62,567 nt of DNA from the NCBI GenBank assembly GCA_017438945.1, contig JAFRUI010000023.1, positions 1-62,567 on the forward strand. Direction: 5' to 3'. The position numbers and the translations under genes were made by a program. The notes below the pieces were generated by a model. That model had not been told where the DNA came from, made no database searches, and was given only the letters and a program-made list of their open reading frames with translations. Shown here one piece after another: positions 16,721 to 56,583 of the stretch. Source of the DNA: Bacteroidales bacterium (GTDB taxonomy: Bacteria; Bacteroidota; Bacteroidia; Bacteroidales; WCHB1-69). Numbering within the stretch: position 1 is the stretch's first letter; each line of letters starts with the position of its first letter.

Positions 16721-16730
16721 TTATTCTACA

Positions 16731-26163: not shown

Positions 26164-29100
26164 CTACTTCTTGACGAACGTCTTCGTCGCCACACCCTGT
26201 TCGGTGGTCACGCGCACGAAATACATGCCATTGGCAAGATTCGAGACGTTGATGCGGGTCGGGTTGTCAATCACGTTCACCTTGTTGATCAGTTTGCCAT
26301 AAACATCGATCACCTCAATGGATTGAACCTGGAACATTGAACTTTGAACATTGACAACGTCGTTGGCAGGGTTCGGGAACAACGTGATGCTGTTCTCCAG
26401 ATAGTTCACGATGCCCACATCGGTGGTCTGCGCCGTGATGGAGGCGCTCCAGTCGCTGAGGTTGCCGTCACCGCAGTTGGCCTGCACCTGGATCTCGTAG
26501 TTGGTCTTGCCCGTGAGATTGGTGATGGTGTAGCTGTTGGTGTTGACGGTCACCTGCGTCCACTGACCGCCCGCTGCCGGACGATACTGGACGTTCCAGC
26601 TGTTCACGTTGGCATTGGAGTTCCAGGTGATGGAGATAGACTCGTTCTGGATGTCGGTGGTGTGCAGGTTGGTGGGCACGTCACACGGTTGCACATCCTC
26701 GGGCAGCGTGGTGAAGGTCATCTCACTGCCATAGACGGTTTGGCCGTTGAAGGTGATGAACGCCTTGTAGGTGTAACCCGTGTTGGCGGTCAGGCCGGTG
26801 AGGTTGTAGGTGAGGTTGTTGCCCGTCACCGTCACAGGAGCGTAGGTGCCGCCTGCGGTAGCCTTCCACTCGAAGCCCTTGGCCGTGATGGCCACATTAT
26901 CGGGATTGGTAATCGCACCGTTGAGCGTGGCGCCCGTCTGCGTGATGCTGGTGGCCGCCGTGGTGGCTACCGTCGGGTCGGTGATGACAGGGCCGGCACC
27001 GTTTACCACAACACTAATATTGTCGAGACTCAAATAGTAATTGTTGTTGGTACCTCCCGTATATTTGAAGACGATGTAGGCATTGCTGACCGTACTCGGA
27101 ACATTACTGAAATCAACCGTATCGGCCGTCAATGAGGAAATCTGCGGGAACGTGGAGACCTCAGTGAATGTCGTGGCATCGCTGGGATTAGTCATATAAC
27201 CCACAGAAAGCGTACCATTGGAAGAGGTAGTGCCCTCATTCCGATAGGTGAAATACAGGGAGAGCGTCTGAATGTCATCCGTGAATTCCGGCAGGATAGC
27301 GTATAACGGCGTGCTGCTGCTCGACTTGAAGAAGAGGCAGTTACCGGAAACGGCGTATGAGGAGGAAGAAGTGAGGAAAGCCTGAGGATAGCTACCGCTT
27401 ACCGTACTGCAGTTCAGGAACGACCAGCAGTTGGGCATGATGGTGTTGGGATAGTTGGAAGGAGTAGTCGTGGATGTGGAAGAAGCGGCATAGCTGTCGA
27501 AATTTTCCGAATAAGGTGCAGTGAAAGCCTCACAGTTTGTATTATACGTAATCGGTTCGCTCCAGGTGCTATAGTCGGTAGCAGTACACAGAGCACGAAC
27601 ATAAAACTCATACGAAGTGGAAGCGTTCAAGTTCGTCACTGTGAACGGGTTACTGTTCGCAGCTATGGGTGTAGCGGTTTCGACATCGAAGCCCGGTGCG
27701 CCGTAAACAACCTCCCAGGCAGTCTCGTCACCCGCCTCCCACGTCAGGGTGACAGAGGAAGTGGTGGCACCGGTGACTGAAAGATCCGTAGGACGCGGAC
27801 AAGTAGGAATGATCTCCACGTAAATATTGTCAAGGCCCAAATAGTAGTTGTTATTGGAACCGCCCGTATATTTGAAGGCGAGATATGACGCGGAATCAGG
27901 CAGGGAATTCAAAACCTCCGTGATTTCCGTATGGGTGGTCGTCTGCGGATAAGTAGCCAGCTCCACAAAGGTGTTGGCATCCATATTGTCCGTCATATAG
28001 CCTAAAGAGAGGGTACCGTTGTAAGTGGAAACACCTTCATTACGGTAGGTGAACGTGATCTGCGCCGTGTTCAAGGCATCCGTGAATGCCGGAAGCACTG
28101 CATAGATAGGGGTCGTGTTGCTCGACTTGAAGAAGAGGCAGTTGCCTGAAACCGCATACGTGGAAGAGGAGGAGACATAGGCAATCGGATAGGTGGAGCT
28201 GCTCGTGCTTCTGTTCAGGAACGTCCAACAGAGCGGCATGATATCATCCGGATAGTTGCTCGGTGCCGAAGTAGTGGCAGTAGTCGTGTAGGCGTTGAAA
28301 TTTTCTGTATAAGGCAGATCTATCAAATCACATGCCGTAGAAGCTTGCTTGGGCGCACTCCAAGCACTTTGATCGAAACCGTCACATATCGCACGCACAT
28401 AGAACTGATAAACTGTAGAGGTATTCAAACCCGAAACCTCAAAAGGAACCGAGTAGGCCGTCACCACATCCGTGGTGGAATCGGGATCAAAGCCAGGCAG
28501 ACCGTAAGCAATTTCCCATTCGGTTTCCTCGCCCTGGGCAGTCCACGTCAGCGTAACTGAGGAGGTAGTGGCAGACGTAGCTTCCAATTCGATGGGTTTG
28601 ACACACGACGGACGTTCCTCAAGGGTGACGTCATCAATGTAAACATAGTTATAAGCAGAACTGGTGACCACGTTGCGTAACGCGATGAAACCATTTTCAC
28701 CCGTGTAGTTGGTGAACACTACGGTATAAGCGTCAGTAGGATGGCTGGTGGTCAGCGGGATGCTTTGCACCAACGTGAAGGTGCTCGCATTGTTCGGGTC
28801 TGTCATCACACCCACTTCCAAGGCAGGGTTGCCCGAGGTGGAAGAAGCTTTGGCATAGAACGACAACTGCAGGTCATGAATGTCAATGACACTGTTGTCG
28901 AGATTAGGCAGAATGGCGTACGAATTGGCGTAGCTGTTGTAGAAATAGAGGACGTAGGAGCCGCTGTGGGCATTGGAGCTTGAACTATAGACATACGGAT
29001 AGAGCGTGGAGGTGCTGGTGGAGATTCTGCTCCAGCATTCCGGCAGCGGGTAGGAAGCGGTGCCTCCCGGGTTGTTGCCGTCGAAATTCCATGTGTAAGG

Positions 29101-32100
29101 GACAGAGTCAAGTCCGGTACAAGGCGTGGTGAAGGTGGCCTCATTGCTGGTCAGATTGGAGTCTGCACAGACAGCCTCCACATACCACAGGTAAGTGGTG
29201 GAAGGTGTGAGGTTGCTCAAGGTATATACCCCGTTCTCGTCAAGAGTCACGCCAAATTCCTGAATCCACTCATTGTCAGAAGAGGCCTTATAATACAAAT
29301 CAAAGGACGAGGCGTTGGAGTTCCATGTCAAATCGGCTTCCGTGGCATCAAGACGCGCCACACTAAGACCAACGGGTTTCATACAGTCAGGCATGTCACT
29401 GACCACCACATTGTCAAGGGCCAAATAGTAACCGTCGTTCGGGGCGTTTCTTCTCACAAAGGCGATGTAACGGTTTCCGGAATATCCGGCAAGCGAGACT
29501 TCGTATTGTTGGAAAGCGCCGGCCGGGATGTCCGTCTGGAAGAGCTCCGTGAATCCGGGCAGCGGATCAACGGTGCTGGCCGGAGCGGCAAGATCGACAT
29601 CCTCGTCCGAAATCCAAATGGAGATTTCATCGGGTTCCGACGTGGTTGCGGTGGCACGCTGGGCGTAGAAGGAGACCATCTGGTTGCCATCTAATTGGAT
29701 CAACGGAGTAACCAGCCAATCGTTATGGTTCGAGGTTGCATAATCGGTATAGCAGGCGGCCGAACCACTTCCCTCATACACACGGCCGGCTGTGGTGTTA
29801 TGGCGCCAGTTCCAGTTGTAGGAGGTGGAGGTGGCACCACCGTTATAGACCTTCCAACAGTTGGGAGCGTCATTGTTTTGGTCAAAGGCGGAAACCGGGA
29901 TCCATCCGGCTTCAAACCCTTCAGCCCAAGGCAACTCCGTCACTATGTCGCAGACGGTGCTGAAGGTGGAGAAGGTACTCGTGGCCACCGTTCCATCATC
30001 ACAATTGGCGGCCACGTACCAATCGAAATTGGAAGAAGCGGGAAGGTCTGTCAATGTGTAGGTGCTGTCAGCATCCAACATGACATTCTCCACAGCCGTA
30101 TAATTGTTATCAGACACAGCTTTGTAATATAGTGTGTAGCTTGAAGCATCTGAATTCCAGGTCAGCGTGGCAGAGCTTGTGCTGGAGGTGACCATGGCCA
30201 AATCCGTGGGTTGAGAACATAAAGGAGCGACTTCCAGCGTCATGTCATCCACGCGAAGCCAATAAGCTCCGTCGTTCCGTTGGAACTGGATGGCAATGTG
30301 TTGGCCTTCTCCTGTATATTGGTTGAAATGGAGCGTATATTGCTCATATTGCCCACCGGCTGCTCCAATCACGGATATGGAGTCCACCTGTTCGAAAGTG
30401 GAGGCATCCTCGGGGTCGGTCATCACGCCACCCTTCACAGTCACATCCCAATAGTCATAGGAATCCGAATTCTTGGCAAAGAAGGTGAGCTGCAGTGTGT
30501 TTACTGGATAGGTGGTCGCGTCGAATTCAGGCAATACCAATGTAGTGAGCGGGGTTGCATGATAAAGATAAAGGTGTCCGCTGCCATGGTAGGAATCGGA
30601 AGAGTTCAGGTTGACTTTTGTGTTTGTAGTGAGATTCAAGGCTGACCAACAAAGAGGGAGAGTCGTAATCGGATTGCGAGCCTCAAAATCCCAAGTATAA
30701 GGCAGCTGTGTAATCATCTCGCAGCCCGTGACGAAGGAACCCGTGCTATTAGAGGGGACCTCAGTGCCGTCTGGGCAGATGGAGGCCACATACCATTCGT
30801 AGCCTGTGGCGCTTTCCAATCCGCTCAACAAATACCCGTCCTCGCCAAGGGAGACATTGTCTACCATCGTGTAGGCGGAGTCCCCCACCACACGGTAATA
30901 GAGGTTATAGGTGCCCACATTGCCCGCCCAAGAGAGGTTTGCACTGTTCGACGTGATGTCGGAAACAGACAAGGTGTTCGGGGCTGCGCATTCGGGGATG
31001 TCGGCCACTGTCACATTGTCTAATGCTAACCAATAGCCGTTATACGGTTCATTTCTGCGGACGAAGGCAATGTATCGGTTTCCGGTATAGTTGGCCAAAG
31101 AGACCTCGTAGAGCTGGAATGCTCCAGCCGGAATGTCGGTTTGAAACACTTCTGTGAAGCCTGGAAGTGGTGCGTCGGAGCTGTCGGGTGCAGTCAAAAC
31201 GGCATCCTCGTCCGAAATCCAGATGGAAATCTCATCAGGCTCGGAAGTGCTGGCCGTGGCGCGCTGGGCGTAGAAGGAGAGCATCTTGTTGCCGTCCAGT
31301 TGCAACAGCGGAGACACTAACCAGTCGTTGTGTGCGGCTGTGGCATAGTCAGTGTAGCAAGCCGCTGAGCTGTTGCCCTCGTACACGCGACCGGCCGTGG
31401 TGTTGTAACGCCATTTCCAATCATAGGAGCTGGAGGTGGCACCACCATCGTATATCTTCCAACAATTAGGTGCCGGATTGTTCTGATCGAATGCTGAAAC
31501 AGCGACCCAGCTTTCTTCAAAGCCTTCCGACCACGGGAATTCGGTGACGACACCGCATTCGGTATTGAAATTACCAGTACCGAAACTGCTGATTTCCGTG
31601 CCATCGTCACACAAGGCCGTCACGTACCATTCGTAGATGCTGGAAGCAGTAAGATTGTCAAGCGTATAAGTGTTGTCCGCATCCAACGAAATGTTCTCCA
31701 CATCCGTGAACTCGGTGTCGGATGCCATTTTGTAGTGTAACGTGAAGAGCGAAGCGGTGGATTCCCAAGTCAGCGTAGCGGAAGTTTCCGTGGAAGAGAC
31801 CATGGCCAACGAGGAAGGACGCGTGCAATCCGGTATCAGGTTGACTTCTATATTGTCCAAACAACCAGCGTTGTAGCTTGACGCTGGCTGGGGAGCCATC
31901 AGAGCGATGTAGTTACCGGTTCCTTCATAGTCGGAAAGTTGGATTTCATAAAAGCCGTACGCGTTGGATGAGGTTGTGATGGTGTCAACAGGCACGAAGG
32001 TGGTCTTGTCACCAGGATTGGTCATGACACCCACCACAATCGTCAGGGTGTAGGTTGAATAACGTATTGCGCCAAAACTGACCTGCAAGGTGTTGATAGG

Positions 32101-38100: not shown

Positions 38101-40181
38101 CCTCCTACAAGTTCGAGTACAAAGCCGCCAGTGCCACCGAATGGAATACGGTCATCCTCACTGACACCTCCTATACCCTCAACAACCTTGTGGCTTCCAC
38201 CCCTTACCTGGTGAATGTTTACGCAGACTGCGGCGACGTATTCTCCCCCGCCGTCTCCATCACTTTCAATACAACCATGCACGCTGTGGATATCCCGTAC
38301 AGCACAGACTTCAGCGACCTCAACGATCAATACTGGCAGCTGAACAACGGGGCATGCAACAACTACTGGTCGATCGGCACCCTCAACGACTCCACCAGTG
38401 CGCTCTTCATCACCAACAACGGCACCACCCCGGGATACAACGTGAACTCATTCTCCGCGGTCTCTGCCGAAAAACTCTTCACCGTCGGAGAAGCAGCCGA
38501 TCTGATGATCAACTTCAATGTGAAGATAGGCGGTGAAGAGTCGTATGACTATCTGAAGGTCTTCCTTGCCCCCGCAGATGCCTCTTATCCAGCCACCAAC
38601 ACCAACGCTGATTACACTACCACAGAATACTCCTTGTATGCCGTTAATTTCAGCGACTTCATGCAGTATTCATCCTTCACTTCTTATCCTTACAAATTCA
38701 ATTTGACAAATGACAGCACGGTCAACGTGAGTGTGGTCATGGCCAACCCGAACGACAACCCCACCTCCACCTCCACTGCCAAATTAGTTTTCTTGTGGAA
38801 AAACGACAGCTCCGCCGGCGATCAACCCGGAGCCATCGTCTATGATGTGTCCATTGAAGCACTTTCCTGCACACCGCCTACCGATCTGACGATTGACAAC
38901 CTCATCTCCACGGATGCGGATATCTCCTGGACTCCCGGCGACCAAGAGGAGACTTGGAATCTGGAATACCGCGAGGCCTCCACTCCCGCATGGACGTCGG
39001 TTGAGGTCACGGGCACCCCTGAGTACCATCTCTCCGGGCTGGTCTCCGGCACCACCTACTTCGTCCGTGTGCAGGCTGACTGCGGCGGCGGACAATCCCT
39101 GTGGCTTACCGAGAGCTTCTACACCCCGTGCCTCGACGCCATCAACGAGTTCCCCTACAACGAAGGATTCGAGAATAGCGGCAACATGCCGAATTGCTGG
39201 CATCAGGAATATGTCACCGGCAGCGTGAACTGGACGTTCCAAGCCGGTGGCGACAGTCACGGCAATGTGAACAACGCCCATAGTGGCAACTACAACGCGT
39301 TCCTTTTCGACGAGAGCACCATTTTCAACACCACACGTCTGGTTTCACCCATCTTCGACCTCTCCTCTCTGACAAACCCGTACATCTCCTTCTGGTACGC
39401 CCAGCAAGCGTGGGGTAACGGTCAGGACCGTCTGAACGTTTATTACCGCACCTCCGCTTCTGACGAATGGCAGGAGCTGACTCAATACTATGGTTCCGTG
39501 GCCGTATGGACCATGGATTCCATCGCCTTGCCCAACCCGTCTGCCACCTACCAGATCGCTTTCTCCGGCATCGTCAACTATGGATATGGCGTTTTGCTGG
39601 ATGACATCACCATCGCTGAAGGTTATGTCGCTCCTGAGCCGTGCGATGTGCCCACCAATCTGCACACCACCGACATCCAGAACGAATCCATCTCCGTTGC
39701 TTGGGATGCCCACGCAGGCGTGAGCAGCTGGAACATCCAGTACCGTCCGGCAACCGCCGATCAGTGGTCGCTCGTGAACGTCAACACCAACAGCTACACC
39801 ATCACCAATCTCACGGGCAAAACGTTGTACGAAATCCAGGTGCAGGCCAACTGCGCTGACGAACAGACCAGCGACTGGAGCAGCTCCATCACGGCACAAA
39901 CCACCGATGTGGGTATCGTGAACTACCTGGAGAACAGCATCTCCTTGTTCCCGAACCCCGCCAACGACGTTGTCAATGTACAATGTACAATGAACAATGT
40001 ACAATTGGAGGGTATCGAAGTAATTGACGTTTATGGAAAGGTCGTCCGCACCGTTGTAGGGGCGAATAATGATTCGCCCATGCCCATCCGCATCAACGTC
40101 AGCGGTCTCGCCAACGGCATGTATTTCGTGCGCGTGACCACCGACGAGGGCGTCGTGACGAAGACCTTCGTGAAGAGATAG
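35193..40181 (+). CDS. Giant gingipain-adhesin-like protein with CUB-like and sorting domains (1662 residues)
   Basis: Predicted secreted adhesin. Signal peptide 1-21 (ATG at 35193, MKKTLLLLPLLL). Residues 23-190 are the closest in the window to gingipain hemagglutinin domains (FEGYGLPTGWTVLDMDGDGE, LTPDNWLVSPAI, DHYAVYIST). An Ig-like domain follows (190-290), then adhesin domain 292-455, FN3, adhesin domain 544-735, FN3, CUB-like domain 838-945 (TCSLIIYDNGGPNGNYS), FN3, a MAM/adhesin-like domain 1030-1225, FN3, adhesin domain 1316-1480, FN3 1483-1575 and sorting domain 1580-1662. The last FN3 and sorting domain are nearly the same as in three paralogues. Two repeats are embedded in frame in the sorting domain. 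A strong terminator follows. Confidence 0.88.
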   Translation: MKKTLLLLPLLLALFSFSVKAQITFFSEDFEGYGLPTGWTVLDMDGDGESWMHNSLSMSYMGGHESEGSFLSHSYDFEEYSPLTPDNWLVSPAITLSGNSTLTFWRMVSFFNSADHYAVYISTTSATDTSAFTMLYEETCSSQSYAWASRSVDLSEYTGNTVHIAFRHFNCSQRLIAIDDIVISGSTNAPLITTAPSSLHFVNVPTGTTSAAQAVRVYTYNVTDPVSASVPVPFEVSADNSNFSTSATMALSDTMLYVRYSPTAEGFDSTSMTLTSGTAITEVPLIGSSVYCNVDLPYEQNFNSAPEYGFPTCWSQINPFDGYPKTTDDYTSPGDNVLMFKCDFNNYQPIFAVMPQMPADLSNLQISFSTFREGSYSGTLSVGYVTNVADSSTFVPVWSINAAQIGDNNPHPYLVTFENVVTDPDINYYITFKYETSSNWYWFVDDVVVEELAPCSMPTGLEVSLVTSTSATVSWGGSASSYFLYYKSQYDTGYTEIQNVLPGENGYTIEELLPVTTYTWYVASVCDDGSTVNSLEISSFTTECSTYSTPFVQNFDGSTNVPLCWNRYNGWASDVFAGGTLTTTTSGWVFNSTLVFGASHPKVNIYGASCNRWLVSPPIDLGDLTNPVLTFDLALTSWNTTNAISDPNGQPDDKFMVIVSTDFGATWSAANATVWSNDGNGDYVFNQIPAAGQEVSISLSDYESQTVMIAFYGESSTANGDNDLHLDNVVVSNATSCTKPTSLSVVAVSGNSVTLGWIESGNATSWNIEYGPAGYQQGSSVATVVEANTNPYTINNLSANTYDFYVQSDCGADQSLWVGPISATPGSFNMGVTGYDSLTTCSLIIYDNGGPNGNYSASCDYTLVLYPETEGAAVSVSGSYATENNWDFLRIYDGVGTGGSLLGEFSGNGTVPTTVSSSGPLTVRFTSDAGMQYAGFMLTASCTSCSPAGNLTVSDLTDNSAEITWTGMASSYKFEYKAASATEWNTVILTDTSYTLNNLVASTPYLVNVYADCGDVFSPAVSITFNTTMHAVDIPYSTDFSDLNDQYWQLNNGACNNYWSIGTLNDSTSALFITNNGTTPGYNVNSFSAVSAEKLFTVGEAADLMINFNVKIGGEESYDYLKVFLAPADASYPATNTNADYTTTEYSLYAVNFSDFMQYSSFTSYPYKFNLTNDSTVNVSVVMANPNDNPTSTSTAKLVFLWKNDSSAGDQPGAIVYDVSIEALSCTPPTDLTIDNLISTDADISWTPGDQEETWNLEYREASTPAWTSVEVTGTPEYHLSGLVSGTTYFVRVQADCGGGQSLWLTESFYTPCLDAINEFPYNEGFENSGNMPNCWHQEYVTGSVNWTFQAGGDSHGNVNNAHSGNYNAFLFDESTIFNTTRLVSPIFDLSSLTNPYISFWYAQQAWGNGQDRLNVYYRTSASDEWQELTQYYGSVAVWTMDSIALPNPSATYQIAFSGIVNYGYGVLLDDITIAEGYVAPEPCDVPTNLHTTDIQNESISVAWDAHAGVSSWNIQYRPATADQWSLVNVNTNSYTITNLTGKTLYEIQVQANCADEQTSDWSSSITAQTTDVGIVNYLENSISLFPNPANDVVNVQCTMNNVQLEGIEVIDVYGKVVRTVVGANNDSPMPIRINVSGLANGMYFVRVTTDEGVVTKTFVKR
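39974..40008 (+). repeat. In-frame heptamer array inside the sorting domain
   Basis: CAATGTA, CAATGTA, CAATGAA, CAATGTA and CAATTGG: five units, 35 bases, read as the VQCTMNNVQLE segment. Confidence 0.85.
40056..40079 (+). repeat. Palindromic repeat read in frame in the sorting domain
   Basis: GTAGGGGCGAATAATGATTC followed by GCCC. GGGCGAAT and ATTCGCCC are inverted. It encodes VGANNDSP, absent from the sorting domain of the 2364-residue paralogue. Confidence 0.75.
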
Positions 40182-47300: not shown

Positions 47301-49155
47301 TGTCTATTGGGTGGACAACGATGCCACGCACAATTCCTGGACTGTCTATTACAAGCCGAGTTATGCTGATGAGAACAGCTGGCAGACGCAGGTTGCCAAC
47401 CAAATCCCTGCAACCCTGACAGGTCTGAGCAGCAGCACGGATTACCAAGTGTATGTGATCACCAACTGTTCGGTGTCTGACCCTGTGGCCGACGCCACCC
47501 AAACGGTGACCTTCACCACGCTGGTTTCCTGCCCTGCCCCCATTTCCATCTCCTTCTCGAACGTTGTCACCGATGCGGCCGACGTCTCCTGGGTGTCGCT
47601 CGGCGACGCCGCTGAATGGGAAATCGAATACGGTTTGCATGGCTTTACCTTAGGCTCGGGAACCACGGCGACGGTCTATTCCCAGAGCTACACGCTCCAG
47701 AACCTGATGGCCAGCTCGCAATATGATGTGTACGTCCGTTCTATCTGCGGGGCTGGTGACAACAGCACCTGGACAGGTCCTGCCTCCTTCTCCACTGCCT
47801 GCGGTCCGATTTCCGTGGCCACCACACCGTGGAGCACCGATTTCGAGGGCACTGACGCCGAGTTGCTCAACTGCTGGGTCTCCGCCTCCACAGGTTACTA
47901 TAACGGGAACACCTTCCCGCATATCACAAACGCTTCGATCATCGCCCACTCCGGCACGCGCGCCTTGGAGATTGCCTTCGGTGACATCGTGACCGCCCTG
48001 CCGCTCTTCGTGGAAGACCTCAGCGACCTGCAGATCTCCTTCTGGGCTAAACACAACAATTACAGCAGCGACAACCCCACGATGGAGTTGGGCTATGTGA
48101 CCGACCCGTACGATGGTTCCACTTTCGTCACATTGGAGACCCTGACCGGCACCACCTACACGCAGACGACGAGAACCTTCGCCGACCTCGCCGGTCAGAA
48201 CCTGCCAAGCACCACACGCATCGCCTTCCGTTATACCCGTCCGACCAGCTCATCACTCAGCTCTTGGTATGTTGACGATATTGTGGTGGAATATGTTGGC
48301 GGCACTCCTGTGATTACCGATCCGACCGTATCCACCAACGCTGCCACCAACATCACACAGACGGGCGCCACGCTGAACGGCACCGTCACGAACCCCGATG
48401 GCGTGACCATCACGGCCAAGGGCTTCGAATGGAAGGCTACCTCGGGCGGCACCTACACACCGGTGGTGGTGACGAGCTCCTCTCTGACCCACAACCTCAC
48501 CGGCCTCACCGCCAACACGGGTTACACCTTCAAGGCGTTCATCACCTTCAACGGCCAAACCGTCTATGGCAGCGAGATGACCTTCAACACGCTGCCGGAG
48601 GATACTCCCGAGCCGTGTGACGTGCCCACCAACCTGCACACCACCGACATCCAGAACGAGTCTATCTCCATTGCATGGGACGCAAACGCCAACGTGAACA
48701 GCTGGAACGTCCAATACCGTCCGGCCGCGGGCGGTCAGTGGACCCAGGTGACCGTCAGCACCAACAGCTACACCATCACCAACCTCACCGGCAAGACCGA
48801 CTACGAGATCCAGGTGCAGGCTAACTGCGGCGACGGCAACCTCAGCGACTGGAGCGCCTCCGTCACGGCACAGACCACCGATGTGGGTATCGTGAACTAT
48901 TTGGAGAACAGCATTACCTTGTTCCCGAACCCTGCCAACGACGTTGTCAATGTACAATGTACAATGAACAATGTACAATTGGAGAATGTCGTAGTAATTG
49001 ACGTTTATGGAAAGGTCGTCCGCACCGTTGTAGGGGCGAATAATTATTCGCCCATGCCCACCCGCATCAACGTCAGCGGTCTGGCCAACGGCATGTATTT
49101 CTTGCGCGTGACCACCGACGAGGGCGTGGCGACGAAGACCTTCATCAAGAAATAA
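41329..49155 (+). CDS. Giant adhesin with GLUG/beta-helix N-terminus and sorting domain (2608 residues)
   Basis: Predicted surface protein. Signal peptide 1-24 (MKKFYIIAVMCLVALMGF; an ATG two codons upstream at 41323 is possible). Residues 26-310 form a repetitive beta-helix-like domain (STPEQLAGLASLVN, NFNGHGHAIYNLYC, GGIFGAT), as in GLUG-motif proteins. Next come an Ig-like domain (about 323-395) and an InlB-like repeat (395-480), then cleaved-adhesin domains near 479, 1013, 1270, 1802 and 2159 alternating with FN3. Two copies of the unnamed sandwich module are near 731 and 1536. The FN3 pair 2324-2520 and sorting domain 2527-2608 close the protein. The N-terminal 400 residues closely match the next gene, so the two are duplicates with diverged middles. 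Confidence 0.88.
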   Translation: MKKFYIIAVMCLVALMGFKPTLQAQTIWDGTSDISWYDASETSFDISTPEQLAGLASLVNTGTSFNGVTLNLTDDIWLNSTGDSTNNWVPIGGGSPTSESPSTGNAFKGNFNGHGHAIYNLYCDKGSTFHAGLFCALENPCTIDSLVMVNPVLKSRGMMGCIAGYPRGSSSVYVRYCLVINARIEGENTSGSNNIGGIFGATYPNNGSTYIENCGVTGSITGYYPAGMSGNAERSYTTNFYFAGTLYSYGTNYGGVAAHGGSFTNCYSYTQVLSSTSQSSASSDGIQVTQDEMQSEGMITLLGDAFKMDNGMNDGYPVMSYMPGISPSAVNICMNESVTLTASGYDSYVWNTGATTESITVSPSTTTVYTLTGTLNGTTYTNTATVTVFQQAEITAMVMASSDGLVHGTVTPETSTVACGSSESITLTVTPDEGYRVELVTLNGEEVYGDEFGPGEQYITINPNGMLGAVKIYMSKCAILSLPFTDDLESYASSQVPECYNRISPSSYPYIYNYSSYAHSGSNCIYAYMYSTSDNYIMVLPKMFDLNTYPMESLMVNFWARTSNASNSVTVGVMTDPTDASTFTPMQTFTFAATGTYEQFTAYFGAAAQEKPYIAFKYNCGSTYTYIYMDDITVNVAPTCSPVINLTVDNVYGTNASLHWLPNTVGETVEYVITVTDASGSSFTETTTETDYILSGLNEQTAYTVTVQPDCGGGDLGEVVAVSFTTPCVAPVVAVNNSYPTSTYSTEGNHFPMSNHYLNSFTEQIYLPSDFDNVSAEFSGMSFQYNDGQVITRTLDIYLAHTADNEFVQNVWATPTDGYVHVYSGPVTFSTAGTDRWVDIAFDTNFYYNGYDNLLLIVNDITGSEVNNSNAKFYTMNTNGNRSQCEYSHDADANWSITNMPATGRLKTQVDNIRLTACDEVSCIAPNTLAVGTTDATSGEISWFNPNASQSCEIEYKAVSDADWTSMGTVSGNSYTLSGLDANTQYQVRVRALCGNNSESNWSETISFRTECDAITTLPYVQNFDTDTYGSGTDAYIYCWDRYTTDPAKPVQMYPTSAAHTTPNAIRFYDGANVTNIAIMPKVDESISLNQLQLSFWVRSTSSTAPVIMELGVMTDKSDPTSFEVLDTIPTPYLPNNEYTLVEYSLANYMGYGQYIAFRASKGNGGNNLRLDDVTLDYIPMCQHPVDLVVDVVTSDEVNFHWSEVGDASSWYVEYGPAGFTPGEGTVENAYDTFYTIYGLNPNTQYDVYVWSDCGGLESTAISTSFRTDCGPIVELPFFEDFESGVYNTGMYNSSGQQDYIVCWNRYASDNGHHFYIPTGTTYSHSGSHYLDAHWTSNCFNIAIAPALDQSFDVSQLMVHFWACRTGSSGMLEVGIMDNPAADTTFFPIDTIDLSYMNTYAYDEKYVKFNNYAGNGKYIAFRVSNASSCGYYIDDVTIDYAPECSSVSDLELSDITGTSAVVSWQPGFFGTVNSYTLEYAEGGTENWVTVENITETSYLLSGLTHSTYYDVRVKTNCSDATNGDWVTVTFRTNCLVGGDVAIGEGTSTNSYLPTYSTYNYSYTQQLFLASEMGQPKSIESVTFDMANYTVNRNIKIYLMHTPETSVSSWIDASNAQLVFDAPQQLHTGLNTFQFSTPFTYNGSDNLLLIVLDMTGSWTSGNTWRSHTAFSNASRYIYQDASAYSTSSIPASSGTGTSSRSNVIFGSPCDTTTTCVAPLLSISNITSDGATVNWVAGFMESAWEMEYRPLSDTNWVSVGTVYSLSEIITGLNPNTAYKVRMRSVCGGGEYSFWNEITFTTACGAFTVTQDNPWTESFEDNTTMACFDTPVTYTNSSGSTYPKMLLNYGVAAHSGGNSAEFKGTSNMLVLPEFTNDIHDLRMSFWATSWGVTTTAVVGVITDMDDPSSFETLGDAGTPGPRGGSGGGNGNYMGPFDFNGVQATSGRIAILFSGTTSSDAGWNLDDFTVELTPNCPSPVKTSVTVTGVTSNSADVYWVDNDATHNSWTVYYKPSYADENSWQTQVANQIPATLTGLSSSTDYQVYVITNCSVSDPVADATQTVTFTTLVSCPAPISISFSNVVTDAADVSWVSLGDAAEWEIEYGLHGFTLGSGTTATVYSQSYTLQNLMASSQYDVYVRSICGAGDNSTWTGPASFSTACGPISVATTPWSTDFEGTDAELLNCWVSASTGYYNGNTFPHITNASIIAHSGTRALEIAFGDIVTALPLFVEDLSDLQISFWAKHNNYSSDNPTMELGYVTDPYDGSTFVTLETLTGTTYTQTTRTFADLAGQNLPSTTRIAFRYTRPTSSSLSSWYVDDIVVEYVGGTPVITDPTVSTNAATNITQTGATLNGTVTNPDGVTITAKGFEWKATSGGTYTPVVVTSSSLTHNLTGLTANTGYTFKAFITFNGQTVYGSEMTFNTLPEDTPEPCDVPTNLHTTDIQNESISIAWDANANVNSWNVQYRPAAGGQWTQVTVSTNSYTITNLTGKTDYEIQVQANCGDGNLSDWSASVTAQTTDVGIVNYLENSITLFPNPANDVVNVQCTMNNVQLENVVVIDVYGKVVRTVVGANNYSPMPTRINVSGLANGMYFLRVTTDEGVATKTFIKK
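48948..48982 (+). repeat. In-frame heptamer array inside the sorting domain
   Basis: Five units identical to those at 39974-40008 (CAATGTA, CAATGTA, CAATGAA, CAATGTA, CAATTGG). Confidence 0.85.
49030..49053 (+). repeat. Palindromic repeat read in frame in the sorting domain
   Basis: GTAGGGGCGAATAATTATTC followed by GCCC, a nearly perfect palindrome (GGGCGAATAATTATTCGCCC). It encodes VGANNYSP. Confidence 0.78.
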
Positions 49156-49159
49156 TCCC

Positions 49160-49240
49160 GTAGGGGCGTATCGCATACGCCCGTATCGCATACGCCCGTA
49201 TCGCATACGCCCCTATCGCATACGCCCCTATCGCATACCC
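49160..49240. repeat. Tandem 15-base palindromic repeat downstream of the adhesin gene
   Basis: Begins GTAGGGGCGTATCGCATACG and continues as about five units of CGTATCGCATACGCC (the last two start CCTATC). Each unit holds the inverted repeat GGCGTAT-CGC-ATACGCC. A four-unit relative lies downstream of the next adhesin gene. Confidence 0.85.
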
Positions 49241-49245
49241 CCTTT

Positions 49246-49273
49246 GTAGAGACGTTTCAGGAAACGTCTCTAC
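49246..49273. repeat. GTAGAGACGTTTC inverted repeat
   Basis: GTAGAGACGTTTC-AG-GAAACGTCTCTAC is a perfect 13-base inverted repeat, recurring slightly degraded at 56659-56685. Confidence 0.8.
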
Positions 49274-49287
49274 GGCACTGACCAACC

Positions 49288-49320: not shown

Positions 49321-49361
49321 AACAAGTTATCAACAACCGACTTTTCACAAGTAAAGTTTTG

Positions 49362-49369
49362 TACTTTTG
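49362..49369 (+). promoter_or_regulatory. Bacteroidota -7 box, 2381-residue adhesin gene
   Basis: TACTTTTG, followed by an AT-rich 68-base leader. TTATCAACA lies upstream at about 49327. Confidence 0.5.
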
Positions 49370-49437
49370 CGGCAAATTATCTTAAAAAAAATAGTATATT
49401 AAAAGGCAAAAATAGTTACTCACTAAAATCATTCAGT

Positions 49438-52400
49438 ATGAAAAAAATTTTATTATTGATGCTGACACTGATAACGTTAGGCTTTACTGCCGCGCCAGTG
49501 TCGGCGCAGACCATTTGGGACGGTACCGCGGATATTTCGTGGTACGATGCTTCCGAGACATCGTTCGACATCTCCACGCCGGAGCAGCTGGCGGGTGTGG
49601 CGCAGCTGGTGAACAGCGGGGCCACCACCTTCAACGGCATAACGTTGAATCTGACGGCTGATCTCTGGTTGAATGCCGACAACGACTCCACCAACAACTG
49701 GACTCCTATCGGCGGCAGCGCGACGGCAACGGGCGAGGAACAGTCCTCCGGAAATGCTTTCAGAGGCGTGTTCAATGCCCATGGCCATTCGATTTACAAC
49801 CTCTACTGCGAAAAAAGCAGCTATTTCCACGCCGGTCTTTTCGGCTGTATCCAGAATCCTTGCACGATTGATTCTTTGGTGATGATGAATCCCGTCGTCA
49901 AATCCCAGGGTATGATGGGCGCCATCACGGGTATGACCCGCAGCGGCGGCACTATCTACATTCGTTACTGTCTGGTTATCAATGGTCGTCTGCAAGGCGG
50001 CAGCGGAAACAACATTGGTTTCATGGTGGGTGCCAACTACCCGAACTCTTCCGGCACTCAGATACAGAATTGCGGCGCCACAGGTACCATAACGGGCAAC
50101 TATGTCGGCGGCTTGGGCGGTAACAGCCAAAACGAGACCTTCACAAACTGCTATTTCGCAGGCTCCATTTCTGGATCTCCAGCGGGCGGCATTGCCGCAT
50201 ATTCCGGTACCATCAACAACTGCTACTCTTATGTCACGAACCAGCCTTCATCCGGCAACGGCACAGTGGTCACGGACGAAGAGATGCAATCCGAAGAGAT
50301 GATCACCAACCTTGGCGACGCCTTCAAGATGGACAACGGGGTGAACAACGGCTACCCTATCATGTCTTACATGGCCGGTGTGGATCCCATCGCCGCGGAA
50401 ATCTGCCAGGGCGAGAGCATTACCATCACGGCATTCGGTTATGACTCCTACGCGTGGAGCACGGGGGCGACCACGGAAAGCATCACTGTATCACCCACCA
50501 CTACCTCCACTTATACGGTCACTTGTACATCCAACGGTGTTGCCACCACGCTGACCTCCACCATCACCGTATATCCTCAAGCCATCATCACCGCTTCCGT
50601 GGTGCCTTCCGCTGACGGGCAGGCACATGCCACCCTCAACGCGGAGAGCTTCACGGTGGGCTGCGGCAGCAGCGACAACATCACGTTGGTCGTGACTCCC
50701 GACCCCAACTACCGTGTATATCGTGTGACGTTGAATGGTGCTGAGATATATGGAGACGACTTCGGCGAAGGCCAGGTGAGCATTTCTGTCAACCCTGGCG
50801 GCACACTAGGCGAAGTGAAAGTTTTCGTCTCCAATGAGTATCATGTGAACATCCTTGAACTTTTGGACACGGGCGACACCATCCATGTCTCATCCCTGGT
50901 CCAACCTTACGGCTCCAATGGCGTTTACACCGTCTTGGCCGGCAACGATCAGACCTTCGTTTTCAACAACACCGCTCGCTACGTCCTCGTCGATGCTGAA
51001 ATTGACGGGGCATCCCAAGGGGTCATCGCCTCGTATGAGTTCAACAACATTCATGAGAACCATCAGATTGTGGTGACCTACGCGGACAGCTGCGGTATTT
51101 TTGCACTGCCTTTCTTCGAAGGTTTCGAATCTGTGTCGAGCGGACTTCCGGAATGTTATGATAAGAACCATGCAAACTCATCCTATCCGACGGTGAACAA
51201 CTATTATCCCTACCAAGGAAATTCCATTTATGTCTATAACTATTCTTACTCCGAGAGCTCCAACGAAGTTCCCTGTCTGATCCTGCCCAAAGTGGACAAT
51301 CAGATTAACATTTCCGAACTGATGGTGCAATTCTATGGACGGGCCAATTCCGCTGACGGTTACTTCGTGGTGGGTGTGATGAGCGACCCCACGGACATGT
51401 CCACCTTCACGTCCGTTCAAGCCATCAATCCCACAAACACCTCCGGAACGTATCAACAATACACCGCTTATCTTGGCAACTATGATGGTGAAGGCCATTA
51501 TATCGCCATCAAGATGCCGGTGAATGCTTACTGTCTGCTGGGCATCGACAATCTCACGGTCGATTATGCCCCGCTGTGTTCCCCTGTTACCGGTCTGAGC
51601 ACCTCTGATGTTTACGGTTCCAATGCCACTTTGACATGGAATCCCACCACGGTGGGCGAGGTGTCCGAATACAATGTTTACGTATATGACAATGTCACTG
51701 AAACGGAAGTCACCTACACCACAACGGAGACCTCCTATCTTTTGACGGATTTGAACGAGCTGACTTCCTACACCGTCGGCGTTTTCACCTCCTGCACCAA
51801 CGGTCAGACCAGTGACACCATGTTTGTCAGCTTCATGACCCCGTGTAACAATCCCGTGAACTATTCTGTGGGCGAATCCACCACCACCAACAGCTACCTG
51901 CCCACTTACATATACTACGGAAACACTTACTCACAACAAATCGTGACAGCTGACGTTTTCGAGTCCACGCCCAATGACTTTGCCAGCATTTCTCTCAAAG
52001 ACAACACGAACTCCCCGACAGTCCGCTCCTGCGACATCTATTTGGCTCACGTGCCCGCCGACACAACATTGTCTAATGGATGGATTTTACCCGACCCTGC
52101 AAACGACTTCTATTTCACACAAGTCTTTTCAGGTGATGTGCAGTTCGGCTCGGGCAGCTGGGTGAAGATTGATTTCGACACCGTTTTCCCATATAACGGC
52201 ACAGACAATGTGTTGGTGGTTTTCAACGACCACACCAACTCTTATACCTCATCCCACACTTATGATGTGATTGGCAACTCCAACACCAACGCTATGGCTC
52301 GTTATGCATACCGTGATAACACACCCTACGATGTCTCCAACCCGAATGTCACCGGTACCTTGCTGAACGTAGTGAACACCTTCCGTTTCAGCTACTGTGA

Positions 52401-55400
52401 CGAGAGCAGCTGTATCAGTCCGAACACGTTGACCACATCCAACGTGACAGAAAACTCCGTAGACCTCAACTGGGTGTCTGTCGGCAGTGAAAATTCTTGG
52501 GAAGTGGAATACAAGACCGCCGATGAAACAGAATGGACCTCCGCCGGTTATGTCTCTTCCACCTCAACTACCTTGACCGATTTGGAGTCCAACACGGTGT
52601 ACAGCGTCCGCGTACGTGCATTGTGCAGCAGCTCAGAGTCGAGTCCTTGGAGTGAATCCGTCAGCTTCCGGACCCAATGCGACGCCATCTCCTCATTGCC
52701 TTACAGCACCTCTTTCGAGGATGTGATCGGCGACTATGTGTATTGCTGGTCCCGTCTCGCTTCTGATCCTTCCCATATGGTCTATCGTTACAACTCCTCC
52801 ACATACGCGCACACCGGCAATGGCTGTCTTGACTTCTCCTACACGCCGAATTGCTGGACCGTGGCCATCATGCCCGCTTTTGACGGCAGCATTCCCGTGA
52901 ACAGTCTGATGTTAGACTTTTGGCTTGACAAAACCGGAAACAGCGGTTATTTCGAGGTAGGCGTGATGACCGACCCCGAAGACGGCTCCACGTTTGAAGT
53001 GGTTGACACGATTGAAAGCACGATCATCGGCAACAGCGCCGACTATTTTGAGCACATCATCATCTCTTTGGAGAACTACAGCGGCAGCGGACAATATGTC
53101 GCCTTCCGTGCGTCAAACGCTGCGGGTTGCGGTTACAGAATGGACGACCTCCTTGTTTCTGAGATCCCCACCTGTATGTACCCCACAAACTTGCAAGCTC
53201 TTTCCTCCACCAACGAATCAGTGACATTGTCTTGGACAGAGATGGGCGATGCAACTGCTTGGAACATCATGTATGGTGAAACGGGATTCGACCCTGAAGA
53301 GGGTGGCGATATCGCTATTGCCGATGCGGAAACGTTCACTGTCACCGGGTTGACGAATGTCACCACTTACGATTTCTACGTGCAAGCCGACTGCGGTGGT
53401 TTGCAGAGCCAGTGGGTGGGACCGGTCACCATGACCACAGGCACCTACACCTTCGGGACCAACGGTAGCGATACGTTGACCACATGTAGCGTGGTTCTCT
53501 ACGATGATGGCGGTGCGAACGGCGATTATAGCTTGTCCAGCAACTACACCGTGGTCATCTATCCTGAGACGGAAGGCAGCGGTCTCTCCATCTCTGGCAC
53601 GGTGAACACATACGGCAGTTACTCCTACTATAATGGTGTTGTGACCATTTATGGCGGCGTAGGTACTTTTGGCACTGTGCTGGGCACTTATAGCGGCACG
53701 CAGACAGTGAACCTCGCCTATGGCGGCCCAGTCACCATCAATTTCACCACAGGCAGCTACTACAATTATCCCGGATTCGAGCTGTTGGTGCAGTGCACCG
53801 AATGTTTCCCGCCGAGCGATGTCACGATGTCCGATCAGACGCTTGACGGAGTCACGGTCTCCTGGAACGGTAATGCCGACAGCTATGCTATTTATTTGAG
53901 CGGCGCGATGAGCGGATATTATACCACTACTGGCAACAGCTACACCTTTACCGGCCTGAACAGCAGTTCCTCTTACAGCGTGCAGGTGCGTGCCCTTTGC
54001 GGCAGCGATTCCTCCCTGCTCTCCCCTGCGGTGAACTTCAACACCGCCTGCGGTGCTATCACCATCACAGCCGAAAACCCGTGGTTCGAAGACTTCGAGG
54101 GTTACACCGGCGGTGGCGCACAGCCGTTTGTCTGTTGGGATACTCCGATCACTGAAGTGGTTGATAATGGCACCTCCCCGTTCGTCTATTGCGGTCACAG
54201 CCCGTCATGCCATTCCGGCTCTAACTCTGCTGAGCTGAAAGGCACGAGCAACATGGTTGTCTTGCCTGAATTCACCAACGATCTCCATGATTTGCGTCTC
54301 TCCTTCTGGGCAACGACCACCAACACCTCCAACTATGGCACGGTTGAGATCGGTGTCGTAACCGATGTCTTCGACCCCACCTCCTTCGAGTTGTTAGGCC
54401 CTGCCGGCACACCCGGTCCGCGCGGCAGCTCCGGCTCTGGTCACGGCAACTACATGGGACCGTTCGATTTCAACGGAGTGCAAGCCACTTCAGGGCGTAT
54501 CGCCATCAAGTTCACTGGCTATTCCGGTCTCTCCTGGAACTTGGATGACTTCACGGTCGAACTCGTTCCCGGATGTCCTTCTCCTGTGAAGACCAGCGTG
54601 ACGGCCACCAACATCGATGGTCACAACGCCACCATCTCCTTCACCGACAACGATCCCGACCACAGTTCCTGGACGGTTTACTACAGAGAGCATAATGCTG
54701 CTGCTGACGATCCTTGGATGTCGGTTGTCACAAGCACCACCACGGTGGACTTGAACAGTCTTGATCCAGAGACGACCTACGATGTGTATGTCATCACCAA
54801 CTGCGCAGTTCCTGATGAAGTAGCTGACGCCACGAACACCATCCAGTTCACCACGCTGGTTGCATGTCCTGCTCCGCAGAACATCACGGTTTCCAACATC
54901 GGCATGACCAGTGCAACACTCTCTTGGTTCAGCAATGCCGATTCTTTCACGATTGAATATGGTGAGAGCGGCTTCACACAGGGTAACGGCACCATTGTCA
55001 ACGTCACCACCACCACCTACGATCTGACAGGTCTGACATCAGGCACCTCCTATACGGTCTATGTGACGGCTGACTGTGGTACCGACGGCAGCTCCACTTC
55101 CGCTTCCGTGAACTTCAACACCAACCTTTGTGAGGTGGCCGACCAGTGTGTGTACACCTTCAACCTCACCGACAGTTACGGCGATGGCTGGAATGGCGGT
55201 TATTTGACTGTCCAACAGAATGGTATCACGGTAACTACCGTGGGTATGACCTCTGGCAGCTCTTCCACCGTTAATGTCACTTTGTGCGACAATGCATCCA
55301 CATCTCTCCTTTGGAACACAGGTAGTTTCGATGCAGAGCCTGGTTTCACTTTGGTGGCACCTGATGGCACAGAATTGTACACTGTTTCAGGAATGAGCGG

Positions 55401-56583
55401 CTACAGCCCTTACATGTTCACCACTGATTGCGGTGGCTCTGGTCCTGTCATCACCGACCCGACCGTGACCACTGGTGCAGCCTCCAACATCGCCCAGACC
55501 ACTGCCACGCTGAACGGCACCATCAACAACCCTGACAACGTGACCATCACGGCCAAGGGCTTCGAGTGGAAGACCACTGTTGGCGGCACCTACACTCCTG
55601 TGACGGTGACGGGCAACAACCTCACCTACGACCTCACCAACCTCACCGCCAACACCGGTTACACCTACAAGGCGTTCATCACCTTCAACGGCACCACCGT
55701 CTATGGCGACGAGGTCACCTTCACCACGCTGGAGCAAGGCCAGCTGACGGAGCCTTCCGCCACGACCAACCCGGCCACCAACGTGACCCAAACGACTGCC
55801 ACGCTGAACGGCGCCATCACCAATCCTGACAACGTGACCATCACGGCACAAGGTTTCGAATGGAAAGCCGCTTCCGCTTCCACTTACACCGTGCTGAACG
55901 CTACCGGCTCCACCATGAGCTCCACGCTCAACAACCTGACCGCCAACACGGACTACACTTACCGTGCGTTCGTGACCACAGCCAACGGCACGCATTACGG
56001 CAGCGACGTGACCTTCACCACACTGCCGGAAGAGGTGGAACCGTGTGATGTGCCCACCAACCTGCACGCCACCGACATCCAGAACGAGTCTATCGCCATT
56101 GCATGGGATGCCAACGCCAACGTGAACAGCTGGAACGTCCAATACCGTCCGGCTGAAAACGGACAATGGACCCAGGTGACCGTCAACACCAACAGCCACA
56201 CCATCACCAATCTCACCGGCAAGACCAACTACGAGATCCAGGTGCAGGCCAACTGCGGTGACGGCAATCTCAGCGACTGGAGTGCCTCCATCACGGCGCA
56301 GACCACCGATGTGGGCATCGTGAACTACCTGGAGAACAGCATCACTCTGTTCCCGAACCCTGCCAACGACGTTGTCAATGTACAATGTACAATGAACAAT
56401 GTACAATTGGAGAGTGTCGAAGTAATTGACGTTTATGGAAAGGTTGTCCGCAGCGTTGTATGGGCGAATAATTATTCACCCATGCCCATCCGCATCAACG
56501 TCAGCGGTCTCGCCAACGGCATGTATTTCGTGCGCGTGACCACCGACGAGGGCGTGGCAACGAAGACCTTCATCAAGAAATAA
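49438..56583 (+). CDS. Giant adhesin paralogue with beta-helix N-terminus, CUB-like and sorting domains (2381 residues)
   Basis: Predicted surface protein, duplicate of the preceding gene at both ends. Signal peptide 1-23 (MKKILLLMLTLITLGF). Beta-helix domain 25-310 (STPEQLAGVAQLVN, NAHGHSIYNLYC), Ig-like domain, InlB-like repeat and a second small repeat (about 460-545). Cleaved-adhesin domains are near 552, 1081 and 1537, interleaved with FN3. The unnamed sandwich module is near 802, a CUB-like domain near 1346-1450 (TCSVVLYDDGGANGDYS), and a DSYGDGWNGGY domain near 1900. Two threonine-rich FN3-like domains (2000, 2102), FN3 (2200) and sorting domain 2299-2381 close it. An embedded heptamer array and a degraded palindromic repeat lie in the sorting domain. 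Confidence 0.88.
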   Translation: MKKILLLMLTLITLGFTAAPVSAQTIWDGTADISWYDASETSFDISTPEQLAGVAQLVNSGATTFNGITLNLTADLWLNADNDSTNNWTPIGGSATATGEEQSSGNAFRGVFNAHGHSIYNLYCEKSSYFHAGLFGCIQNPCTIDSLVMMNPVVKSQGMMGAITGMTRSGGTIYIRYCLVINGRLQGGSGNNIGFMVGANYPNSSGTQIQNCGATGTITGNYVGGLGGNSQNETFTNCYFAGSISGSPAGGIAAYSGTINNCYSYVTNQPSSGNGTVVTDEEMQSEEMITNLGDAFKMDNGVNNGYPIMSYMAGVDPIAAEICQGESITITAFGYDSYAWSTGATTESITVSPTTTSTYTVTCTSNGVATTLTSTITVYPQAIITASVVPSADGQAHATLNAESFTVGCGSSDNITLVVTPDPNYRVYRVTLNGAEIYGDDFGEGQVSISVNPGGTLGEVKVFVSNEYHVNILELLDTGDTIHVSSLVQPYGSNGVYTVLAGNDQTFVFNNTARYVLVDAEIDGASQGVIASYEFNNIHENHQIVVTYADSCGIFALPFFEGFESVSSGLPECYDKNHANSSYPTVNNYYPYQGNSIYVYNYSYSESSNEVPCLILPKVDNQINISELMVQFYGRANSADGYFVVGVMSDPTDMSTFTSVQAINPTNTSGTYQQYTAYLGNYDGEGHYIAIKMPVNAYCLLGIDNLTVDYAPLCSPVTGLSTSDVYGSNATLTWNPTTVGEVSEYNVYVYDNVTETEVTYTTTETSYLLTDLNELTSYTVGVFTSCTNGQTSDTMFVSFMTPCNNPVNYSVGESTTTNSYLPTYIYYGNTYSQQIVTADVFESTPNDFASISLKDNTNSPTVRSCDIYLAHVPADTTLSNGWILPDPANDFYFTQVFSGDVQFGSGSWVKIDFDTVFPYNGTDNVLVVFNDHTNSYTSSHTYDVIGNSNTNAMARYAYRDNTPYDVSNPNVTGTLLNVVNTFRFSYCDESSCISPNTLTTSNVTENSVDLNWVSVGSENSWEVEYKTADETEWTSAGYVSSTSTTLTDLESNTVYSVRVRALCSSSESSPWSESVSFRTQCDAISSLPYSTSFEDVIGDYVYCWSRLASDPSHMVYRYNSSTYAHTGNGCLDFSYTPNCWTVAIMPAFDGSIPVNSLMLDFWLDKTGNSGYFEVGVMTDPEDGSTFEVVDTIESTIIGNSADYFEHIIISLENYSGSGQYVAFRASNAAGCGYRMDDLLVSEIPTCMYPTNLQALSSTNESVTLSWTEMGDATAWNIMYGETGFDPEEGGDIAIADAETFTVTGLTNVTTYDFYVQADCGGLQSQWVGPVTMTTGTYTFGTNGSDTLTTCSVVLYDDGGANGDYSLSSNYTVVIYPETEGSGLSISGTVNTYGSYSYYNGVVTIYGGVGTFGTVLGTYSGTQTVNLAYGGPVTINFTTGSYYNYPGFELLVQCTECFPPSDVTMSDQTLDGVTVSWNGNADSYAIYLSGAMSGYYTTTGNSYTFTGLNSSSSYSVQVRALCGSDSSLLSPAVNFNTACGAITITAENPWFEDFEGYTGGGAQPFVCWDTPITEVVDNGTSPFVYCGHSPSCHSGSNSAELKGTSNMVVLPEFTNDLHDLRLSFWATTTNTSNYGTVEIGVVTDVFDPTSFELLGPAGTPGPRGSSGSGHGNYMGPFDFNGVQATSGRIAIKFTGYSGLSWNLDDFTVELVPGCPSPVKTSVTATNIDGHNATISFTDNDPDHSSWTVYYREHNAAADDPWMSVVTSTTTVDLNSLDPETTYDVYVITNCAVPDEVADATNTIQFTTLVACPAPQNITVSNIGMTSATLSWFSNADSFTIEYGESGFTQGNGTIVNVTTTTYDLTGLTSGTSYTVYVTADCGTDGSSTSASVNFNTNLCEVADQCVYTFNLTDSYGDGWNGGYLTVQQNGITVTTVGMTSGSSSTVNVTLCDNASTSLLWNTGSFDAEPGFTLVAPDGTELYTVSGMSGYSPYMFTTDCGGSGPVITDPTVTTGAASNIAQTTATLNGTINNPDNVTITAKGFEWKTTVGGTYTPVTVTGNNLTYDLTNLTANTGYTYKAFITFNGTTVYGDEVTFTTLEQGQLTEPSATTNPATNVTQTTATLNGAITNPDNVTITAQGFEWKAASASTYTVLNATGSTMSSTLNNLTANTDYTYRAFVTTANGTHYGSDVTFTTLPEEVEPCDVPTNLHATDIQNESIAIAWDANANVNSWNVQYRPAENGQWTQVTVNTNSHTITNLTGKTNYEIQVQANCGDGNLSDWSASITAQTTDVGIVNYLENSITLFPNPANDVVNVQCTMNNVQLESVEVIDVYGKVVRSVVWANNYSPMPIRINVSGLANGMYFVRVTTDEGVATKTFIKK
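56376..56410 (+). repeat. In-frame heptamer array inside the sorting domain
   Basis: Five units, identical in sequence to those at 39974 and 48948. Confidence 0.85.
56458..56481 (+). repeat. Degraded palindromic repeat in the sorting domain
   Basis: GTATGGGCGAATAATTATTC followed by ACCC: two changes relative to 49030-49053, so it is the same element but decaying (encodes VWANNYSP). Confidence 0.7.

Follow-up and report, generated by a model that had tools for sequence, protein, structure and literature searches.

In-frame heptamer arrays and palindromes at fixed sites of type IX sorting domains and of a Vsr endonuclease in Bacteroidales

Tandem arrays of 7-base units lie in frame at one and the same point of several sorting domains of the type IX secretion system (T9SS) encoded on a Bacteroidales contig, which raises the question of how DNA repeats come to occupy a secretion signal and what the protein demands of them. 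The contig JAFRUI010000023.1 was analysed over its whole length of 62,567 bases and is hereafter called the window; its source genome measures 1.86 Mb and is 63% complete, and the best matches to a window sorting domain in the named public set were Bacteroidales MAGs, many of them labelled as ruminant stomach. Six T9SS C-terminal sorting domains (CTDs) were found in the window, all six exceeding the curated cut-off of TIGR04183, and four of them carry a heptamer array (Table 1). PF18962 and fn3 domains were detected in each of the three window CTD proteins scanned, all of them array-bearing (of four such proteins). The DVYGK motif, with the glycine of Lβ3β4, and the FVKK/FIKK-like ends of the C-terminal basic strand are present, outside the repeats, in 4/4 array CTDs. 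By profile and motif these are T9SS C-terminal sorting domains, with a predicted role in secretion. Directly after two of the CTD genes stand 15-base tandem arrays of similar units (CGTATCGCATACGCC, TATCGCATACGCCCC; 49167-49242 and 56597-56655), and elsewhere in the genome a sorting-domain tail missing its first half lies close to an array-bearing CTD gene (G000:C24:88994-89119, L051).

Table 1. Features of the window by position, followed by the contents of the Vsr insert site by genome
Feature	Position in window, or genomes	Strand	Remarks
CTD without array	6369..6581	+	Period-7 score 4
Heptamer array TCACTAA at gene boundary	19009..19054		Other units at orthologous place in L318
CTD without array	22154..22363	+	Period-7 score 3
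Spacer with two heptamer arrays	24375..24513		GCTATTA-like 24375-24418, GAACTTT-like 24474-24513
CTD gene, 2407 aa	26164..33387; CTD 26167-26382	-	fn3 repeats, Por_Secre_tail (profile scan)
In-frame heptamer array, family CAANGTT	26320..26353	-	CAATGTT CAAAGTT CAATGTT CCAGGTT CAATCC
CTD gene, 1687 aa	35118..40181; CTD 39945-40178	+	Cleaved_Adhesin, MAM, fn3, Por_Secre_tail
In-frame heptamer array	39974..40005	+	CAATGTA CAATGTA CAATGAA CAATGTA CAATTGG (fifth partial)
In-frame GTAG-type palindrome, CTD loop 2	40056..40079	+	GTAGGGGCGAATAATGATTCGCCC, far end decayed
CTD gene, 2610 aa	41323..49155; CTD 48919-49152	+	CTD profile match
In-frame heptamer array	48948..48979	+	Units identical to array at 39974
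In-frame GTAG-type palindrome, CTD loop 2	49030..49053	+	GTAGGGGCGAATAATTATTCGCCC, far end decayed
Intergenic GTAG-type palindrome	49246..49273		GTAGAGACGTTTCAGGAAACGTCTCTAC, 91 bases past CTD gene stop; GTAGAGACG form
CTD gene, 2381 aa	49438..56583; CTD 56347-56580	+	fn3, Por_Secre_tail
In-frame heptamer array	56376..56407	+	Units identical to array at 39974
More decayed copy of loop-2 GTAG-type palindrome	56458..56481	+	
Vsr insert, CAATGTA array	G000, G020, G012, G026, G015		
Vsr insert, ATAATTC/ATAATGC array	G013, G002		
Vsr insert, AGTTAGT array	G009, G006		
Vsr insert, GAATTAA array	G016		
Vsr insert, GAAATGG array	G008		
Vsr insert, CAGGGAA array	G029, G018		
Vsr insert, irregular heptamer array	G034		
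Vsr insert, palindrome	G031, G017, G023, G027, G014, G028		Imperfect in G028; one read by eye
Vsr insert, C-rich/G-rich element	G011, G035		
Vsr insert, unclassified	G022, G037		

The initial annotation had reported same-site, in-frame heptamer arrays in four sorting domains of the window and none in the other two, and both statements were confirmed, with a single codon phase for all four arrays. The division into three arrays of CAATGTA-like units and a fourth of CAATGTT/CAAAGTT was borne out by our unit reading, and the CAAAGTT and CAATGTT units of the latter are, as had been proposed, reverse complements of units of intergenic GAACTTT/GAACATT arrays. A length of five units (35 bases) held for four good units; the fifth is only partial, and the period-7 stretch covers 30-32 bases. 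The array had furthermore been placed after the residues PNPANDVVNVQ. Its first base is in fact the third position of the codon for the second V in DVVNVQ, so that NVQ is encoded by the array and does not precede it. The period-7 arrays exceed chance: at a scan score of at least 14, the window contains ten arrays of period 7, three of period 6 and none of periods 4, 5 or 8-13. Throughout the genome, a period-7 array (score at least 9) occurs in 8 of 59 TIGR04183 matches, which include a few partial or weak CTDs; all eight score at least 12 and all are in frame. Besides period 7, period 14 alone (a multiple) appeared in these matches at a score of at least 12, and at a score of at least 9 period 6 was found in two, period 11 in two and period 18 in three.

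To this genome we added its relatives, giving 190 distinct CTDs. A period-7 array (score at least 10) was present in 90 of the 190, in the same hairpin throughout, a count that gives no prevalence because most of these CTDs were selected for their resemblance to an array CTD; besides period 7, the periods scanned between 4 and 21 reached this score solely at 14 (84 CTDs), 21 (40) and 18 (8). Measured from the codon that precedes PNP, the array start lies at 25-30 nt in 87 of the 90 CTDs and at 36 nt in one, two being unplaced. The frame check returned 101 stretches, two of which are not CTDs; the remaining 99 arrays, all adjoining PNP, keep the frame without exception, with 22-27 codons between PNP and DVYGK. 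Copy-number variation in steps of 21 bases, which the initial annotation had proposed to look for, was seen in 0/99 arrays. Among 92 tabulated CTD arrays, the first four units read exactly CAATGTA CAATGTA CAATGAA CAATGTA in 33, and the third unit is CAATGAA in 65. Two rewritten unit families were recognized in CTDs, namely CAANGTT (five copies including the window array at 26320) and GAATGTA/GAATGAA (four copies, with Q changed to E, T to R and N to K), and codon phase is identical in all three families.

As the residues NVQCTMNNVQ are common to most array CTDs (amino-acid identity 0.81 in the array block), it could be supposed that the protein requires them and that the DNA period is a by-product, an explanation by ordinary protein conservation that we regard as barely credible. 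Between pairs (86 of the 90 array CTDs) the codons of the array had a synonymous mismatch of 0.126, whereas the four blocks flanking it had 0.43, 0.52, 0.36 and 0.39, some three to four times more. The array codons are almost fixed (GTA, CAA, TGT, ACA), and of the neighbouring asparagines one is written AAC and the next AAT in almost all copies. When synonymous codons were substituted in the 90 array CTDs, just 8 of 18,000 trials attained the period-7 score observed, and identical DNA is also found in a Vsr gene, described below. The same residues written with different codons had been named beforehand as the mark of ordinary protein conservation; what we found is near-fixed codons, and residues that change in the rewritten families. 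The CTD array thus goes beyond ordinary protein conservation.

Published CTD structures are described as 3+4 β-sandwiches in which the motif Lβ3β4 is functionally important, and in the mirolase CTD residues T718-L721 are drawn as part of strand β2, followed by a long and variable β2β3 connector (PMC11285876). Alignment to the mirolase CTD and residue counting place the array residues NVQC on β2 and TMNNVQ on the β2β3 connector; by the same alignment DVYGK corresponds to Lβ3β4. The earlier suggestion of a tolerant loop in the secretion signal is partly upheld, the array spanning, by alignment, strand β2 together with loop β2β3 and not a loop alone. In relatives without an array this position is filled by a stretch about as long, so that the array is a replacement and not an extension. 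A second loop, between DVYGK and RINV and assigned to β4β5, is encoded by a palindrome (score at least 9) in 53 of 149 CTDs or, with the cut set slightly differently, in 52 of 139. Its forms include GTAGGGGCGAATAATNATTCGCCCCTAC, several of the type GTAGAGACG...CGTCTCTAC, GGACGCGATTCATCGCGTCC and others. Hairpin 1 holds a heptamer array in 90 of the same 149 CTDs. In none of the 149 was a heptamer array found in loop 2 or a true palindrome in hairpin 1, where the four scored 'palindromes' are the array itself, and the CTD sites are thus not freely interchangeable in the manner of the Vsr site. The loop-2 form GTAGGGGCGAATAATNATTCGCCCCTAC also stands between genes in L318. The GTAG-type 28-mers have 12-14 pairs, and one family of them has 15 forward sites in the source genome. 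GTAG REP palindromes flank RAYT (Y1) transposase genes, and this genome encodes two Y1_Tnp (IS200-like) genes that could be candidates for such a link (G000:C29:43260-43604, L344; G000:C44:184-528, L345); a GTAGAGACG palindrome lies about 550 bp from one of them, and the other has none of the motifs searched.

An array match outside CTDs in the source genome lies in a Vsr mismatch endonuclease gene (G000:C25:58766-59236, L346; orthologues L347-L369), identified by PF03852 (E 5.8e-33) and by the solved Vsr 1cw0 (E 3.6e-25), in which most of the insert falls as a gap. Vsr matches occurred in 31 of 60 genomes and 25 loci were fetched, six more distant matches and a second G018 copy being left out. 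An in-frame insert is present at one loop, directly after GCFWHGH, in 24 of the 25 loci (own genome, 22 congeners and G037 of another genus), and is absent from the solved E. coli Vsr and from a 53%-identical match in G030. The contents of this single site vary: 14 heptamer arrays, among which at least six unit types are seen, six palindromes, two copies of another repeat-like element and two unclassified inserts. Twelve of the 14 heptamer inserts are equal in length, with five unit types among them, and insert identity is 0.64 compared with 0.83 for the flanks (72 equal-length pairs). In G012 an identical 30-mer, CAATGTACAATGTACAATGAACAATGTACA, is found in Vsr and in a CTD (L092), and the 28-mer GTAGAGACGCGCCATGGCACGTCTCTAC is shared by CTD loops (L229, L232) and Vsr (L351, L356). 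A crude base-shuffle control gave a period-7 score of 9 in 0/4600 and a palindrome score of 9 in 5/4600 trials. Synonymous recoding of twelve heptamer inserts, with two duplicates left out, reached the observed score in 0-8 of 1000 trials for eleven of them and in 33 of 1000 for G029. Vsr, an unrelated gene, offers the strongest evidence for the hosting of repeats.

Eleven of the 15 period-7 stretches of the window (score at least 11) lie in spacers or at gene ends, and the CTD unit families recur in spacers of the window and of its relatives. Among the fetched loci, a CTD-enriched sample with 19 loci of other genera left out, tandem arrays numbered 200 for period 7, 26 for period 8 and at most 7 for each of the remaining periods in the range 4-13; of the 200 period-7 arrays, 122 do not fall within a long open frame. 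Compared with the window, to which their aligned stretches are 84-92% identical, the orthologous spacers in L318, L319 and L320 have gained or lost entire heptamer units and in some cases show another unit, and both arrays of the spacer at 24375 differ in related species. Upstream of one orthologous gene, where 18 of 30 fetched loci (own included) were inspected, the contents are many; as judged by eye, some two thirds of these loci have arrays of heptamers or octamers. Long arrays, such as those of TTAACCC, TAAACCC and TGAAACC, precede the start codon of the orthologue of window 24522 in L262, L264 and L272, and the spacers of L265 and L268 at that place have period 8. The L320 spacer orthologous to window 16270-16760 has a C-rich/G-rich repeat which, judged by eye, is similar to the Vsr insert of G011 and G035.

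Of 393 genomes of the order, 24 contain CAATGTA-like arrays, the source genome being one of them. None lay in a CTD in the 10 fetched loci of other genera, and 0/32 CTDs of other genera (30 loci, 19 genomes) gave a score. One of those ten loci, L329 (G384, of another family, f100), has several in-frame heptamer arrays at about 1440-1620; they belong to one open frame of 808 residues that encodes DNA polymerase III alpha domains, and fall within its helix-hairpin-helix part or directly behind it. This polymerase-like frame is a third gene hosting heptamer arrays, in a single case. A CTD query resembling a heptamer translation hit 2 of the 129 genomes searched in the order, and in L402 (family f34) and L404 (family f3) the point that corresponds to the CTD array has heptamer-like stretches built of other units. 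Recoding reached the observed score in 2 (L402), 39 (L404) and 145 (L403) of 2000 trials. Of the 33 CTDs of the two other-family genomes, 3 reach a score of 10, and these stretches are treated as leads because all three are the query's own matches.

The initial annotation had left two histories side by side, a single entry followed by rewriting of units or separate gains. In a tree of 147 of the 190 CTDs, with the array and loop-2 columns removed, array presence required 14 changes, compared with 41-52 when the labels were shuffled 20 times, the tree being short (56 columns) and its supports moderate. All five CAANGTT arrays group in a single clade (SH-aLRT 87), with two sisters in which decayed CAATGTA-type residues persist. 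These results favour the first history: the array probably entered the CTD once, spread with the domain and was rewritten. It would have been copied along with the sorting domain onto many passengers and rewritten in situ at least twice (CAANGTT, GAATG). That each unit family was instead inserted independently at one CTD point is unlikely in our estimation. The many different contents of the Vsr site and the stretches of L402, L404 and L403, in two other families, would suit such insertions; against them stand the codon phase shared by the three unit families, the single clade with its decayed sisters, and the weakness of the other-family cases, which recoding matches at the rates given above and which come from a query already resembling a heptamer translation. 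An improbable view is that the array serves as a recombination site at which passengers and sorting domains are swapped. In the CTDs with enough flank and clear motifs (79 with and 56 without array, out of 139), left-right distance correlation is weak with the array (0.21-0.35) and better without it (0.42-0.68), and in a single example the G013 orthologue of the 26164 CTD differs in the first half and is alike in the second. Of 96 sharp identity switches in 3081 array-CTD pairs, however, one falls within the stretch from the array to DVYGK, which rules against a hotspot there. The weak correlation is accordingly no proof of one, the greater diversity of array-less CTDs being a confounding factor as well. 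The other switches lie at the domain start (37), in the last part (39) and further upstream (19); array-less pairs had 14 in 1540, ten of them at the domain start. Such clustering is consistent with CTD modules that may move between passengers.

Phase variation, in which slippage by 7 bases would shift the frame and switch secretion on or off, might be suggested by the spacer arrays of close species, which differ by whole units. We consider it very improbable, given that 8/8 arrays of the source genome and 99/99 PNP-adjoining arrays are in frame with no 21-base differences; off-frame copies numbered 0/99 in loci mostly fetched via in-frame protein matches, among which rare off states could be missed. 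The main rival is a nucleic-acid function, such as an RNA- or DNA-binding site or an mRNA element, that keeps heptamers in CTD genes. It would account for the very low synonymous divergence, the largely fixed order of units and the heptamers just upstream of the start codon in many spacers of one gene. Contrary to this, 51 of 59 CTD matches of the source genome have no array, the units are altered to CAANGTT and GAATG in some copies, and unrelated repeats occupy the Vsr site, so that we give this function only a small chance of being right; separate gains come next among the rivals. The strikingly stable CTD variants, with CAATGAA as third unit, are better explained by inheritance from a founder or by selection on the nucleic acid than by free turnover.

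For the occupancy, position, phase, frame and DNA-level conservation observed in CTDs, and the varied contents at one Vsr site, we infer single entry, in-situ rewriting and tolerance, and it is rather likely that certain coding sites act like intergenic spacers, hosting the short repeats of the genome in frame. The CTD would take a heptamer array on strand β2 with loop β2β3 and palindromes in its second loop (β4β5), and one Vsr loop would accept either class. A stop-free 7-base array gives the same cyclic 7-residue peptide in all three frames. The protein appears to require only frame, length and strand-compatible residues, for which reason stop-free arrays and stop-free palindromes would be tolerated, and the hosted repeats may be under selection for frame and length. 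More doubtful is that an active process of these genomes recognises certain sites, including a few in protein genes, and replaces repeats across classes (heptamer array, GTAG palindrome, another element), so that intergenic repeats would continually rewrite the protein loops.

In-frame repeats inside bacterial genes have known counterparts. Rickettsia palindromic elements (RPE, mentioned in PMC3733652) are palindromic repeats inserted in frame in several proteins; these are different elements, of Alphaproteobacteria, and we know of no heptamer arrays alternating with them at one site. Heptanucleotide STRR in cyanobacterial RNase P RNA genes are 7-base tandem repeats in a tolerant place of a functional gene, an RNA gene there and protein genes here. 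Among the matches listed, no title dealt with heptamer arrays or palindromes in sorting domains or Vsr. TAACTGA heptamer direct repeats have been described from Beggiatoaceae, Cyanobacteria and five Bacteroidetes (MacGregor 2015, PMC4679880). As described there, they resemble our arrays: the 7-base units stand in tandem, lie mainly between genes and frequently precede a start codon directly, and some fall inside ORFs, where every frame gives one 7-residue cycle. That account follows one unit, whereas here there are many (CAATGTA, CAANGTT and GAATGTA in CTDs, many others in spacers); its in-frame cases are scattered and mostly at protein ends, whereas here one internal domain site is used in many paralogues and species. 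Our palindromes are like the GTAG-tagged REPs (Di Nocera 2013, PMC3733652) in their terminal GTAG, 20-40 bp length and several copies per genome. Some of the latter are reported in frame inside genes, many of these in replication and repair (uvrA, uvrB, DnaE2), and the GTAG repeats are assigned to Proteobacteria, Cyanobacteria, Chloroflexi and the PVC group, Bacteroidetes being given CGTC repeats (PMC3733652). Unlike here, no fixed site common to other repeat classes is seen in the relevant passages of that paper.

Short repeats in bacterial genes are already known, from scattered cases in the literature examined. In the present genomes, defined coding sites are common to repeat classes that are unrelated, keep the frame and differ between species. 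Their frame, phase and neighbours form a record in which one can read how both heptamer arrays and REP-like palindromes have moved and altered, and point to parts of the secretion signal where sequence seems to be of little importance.
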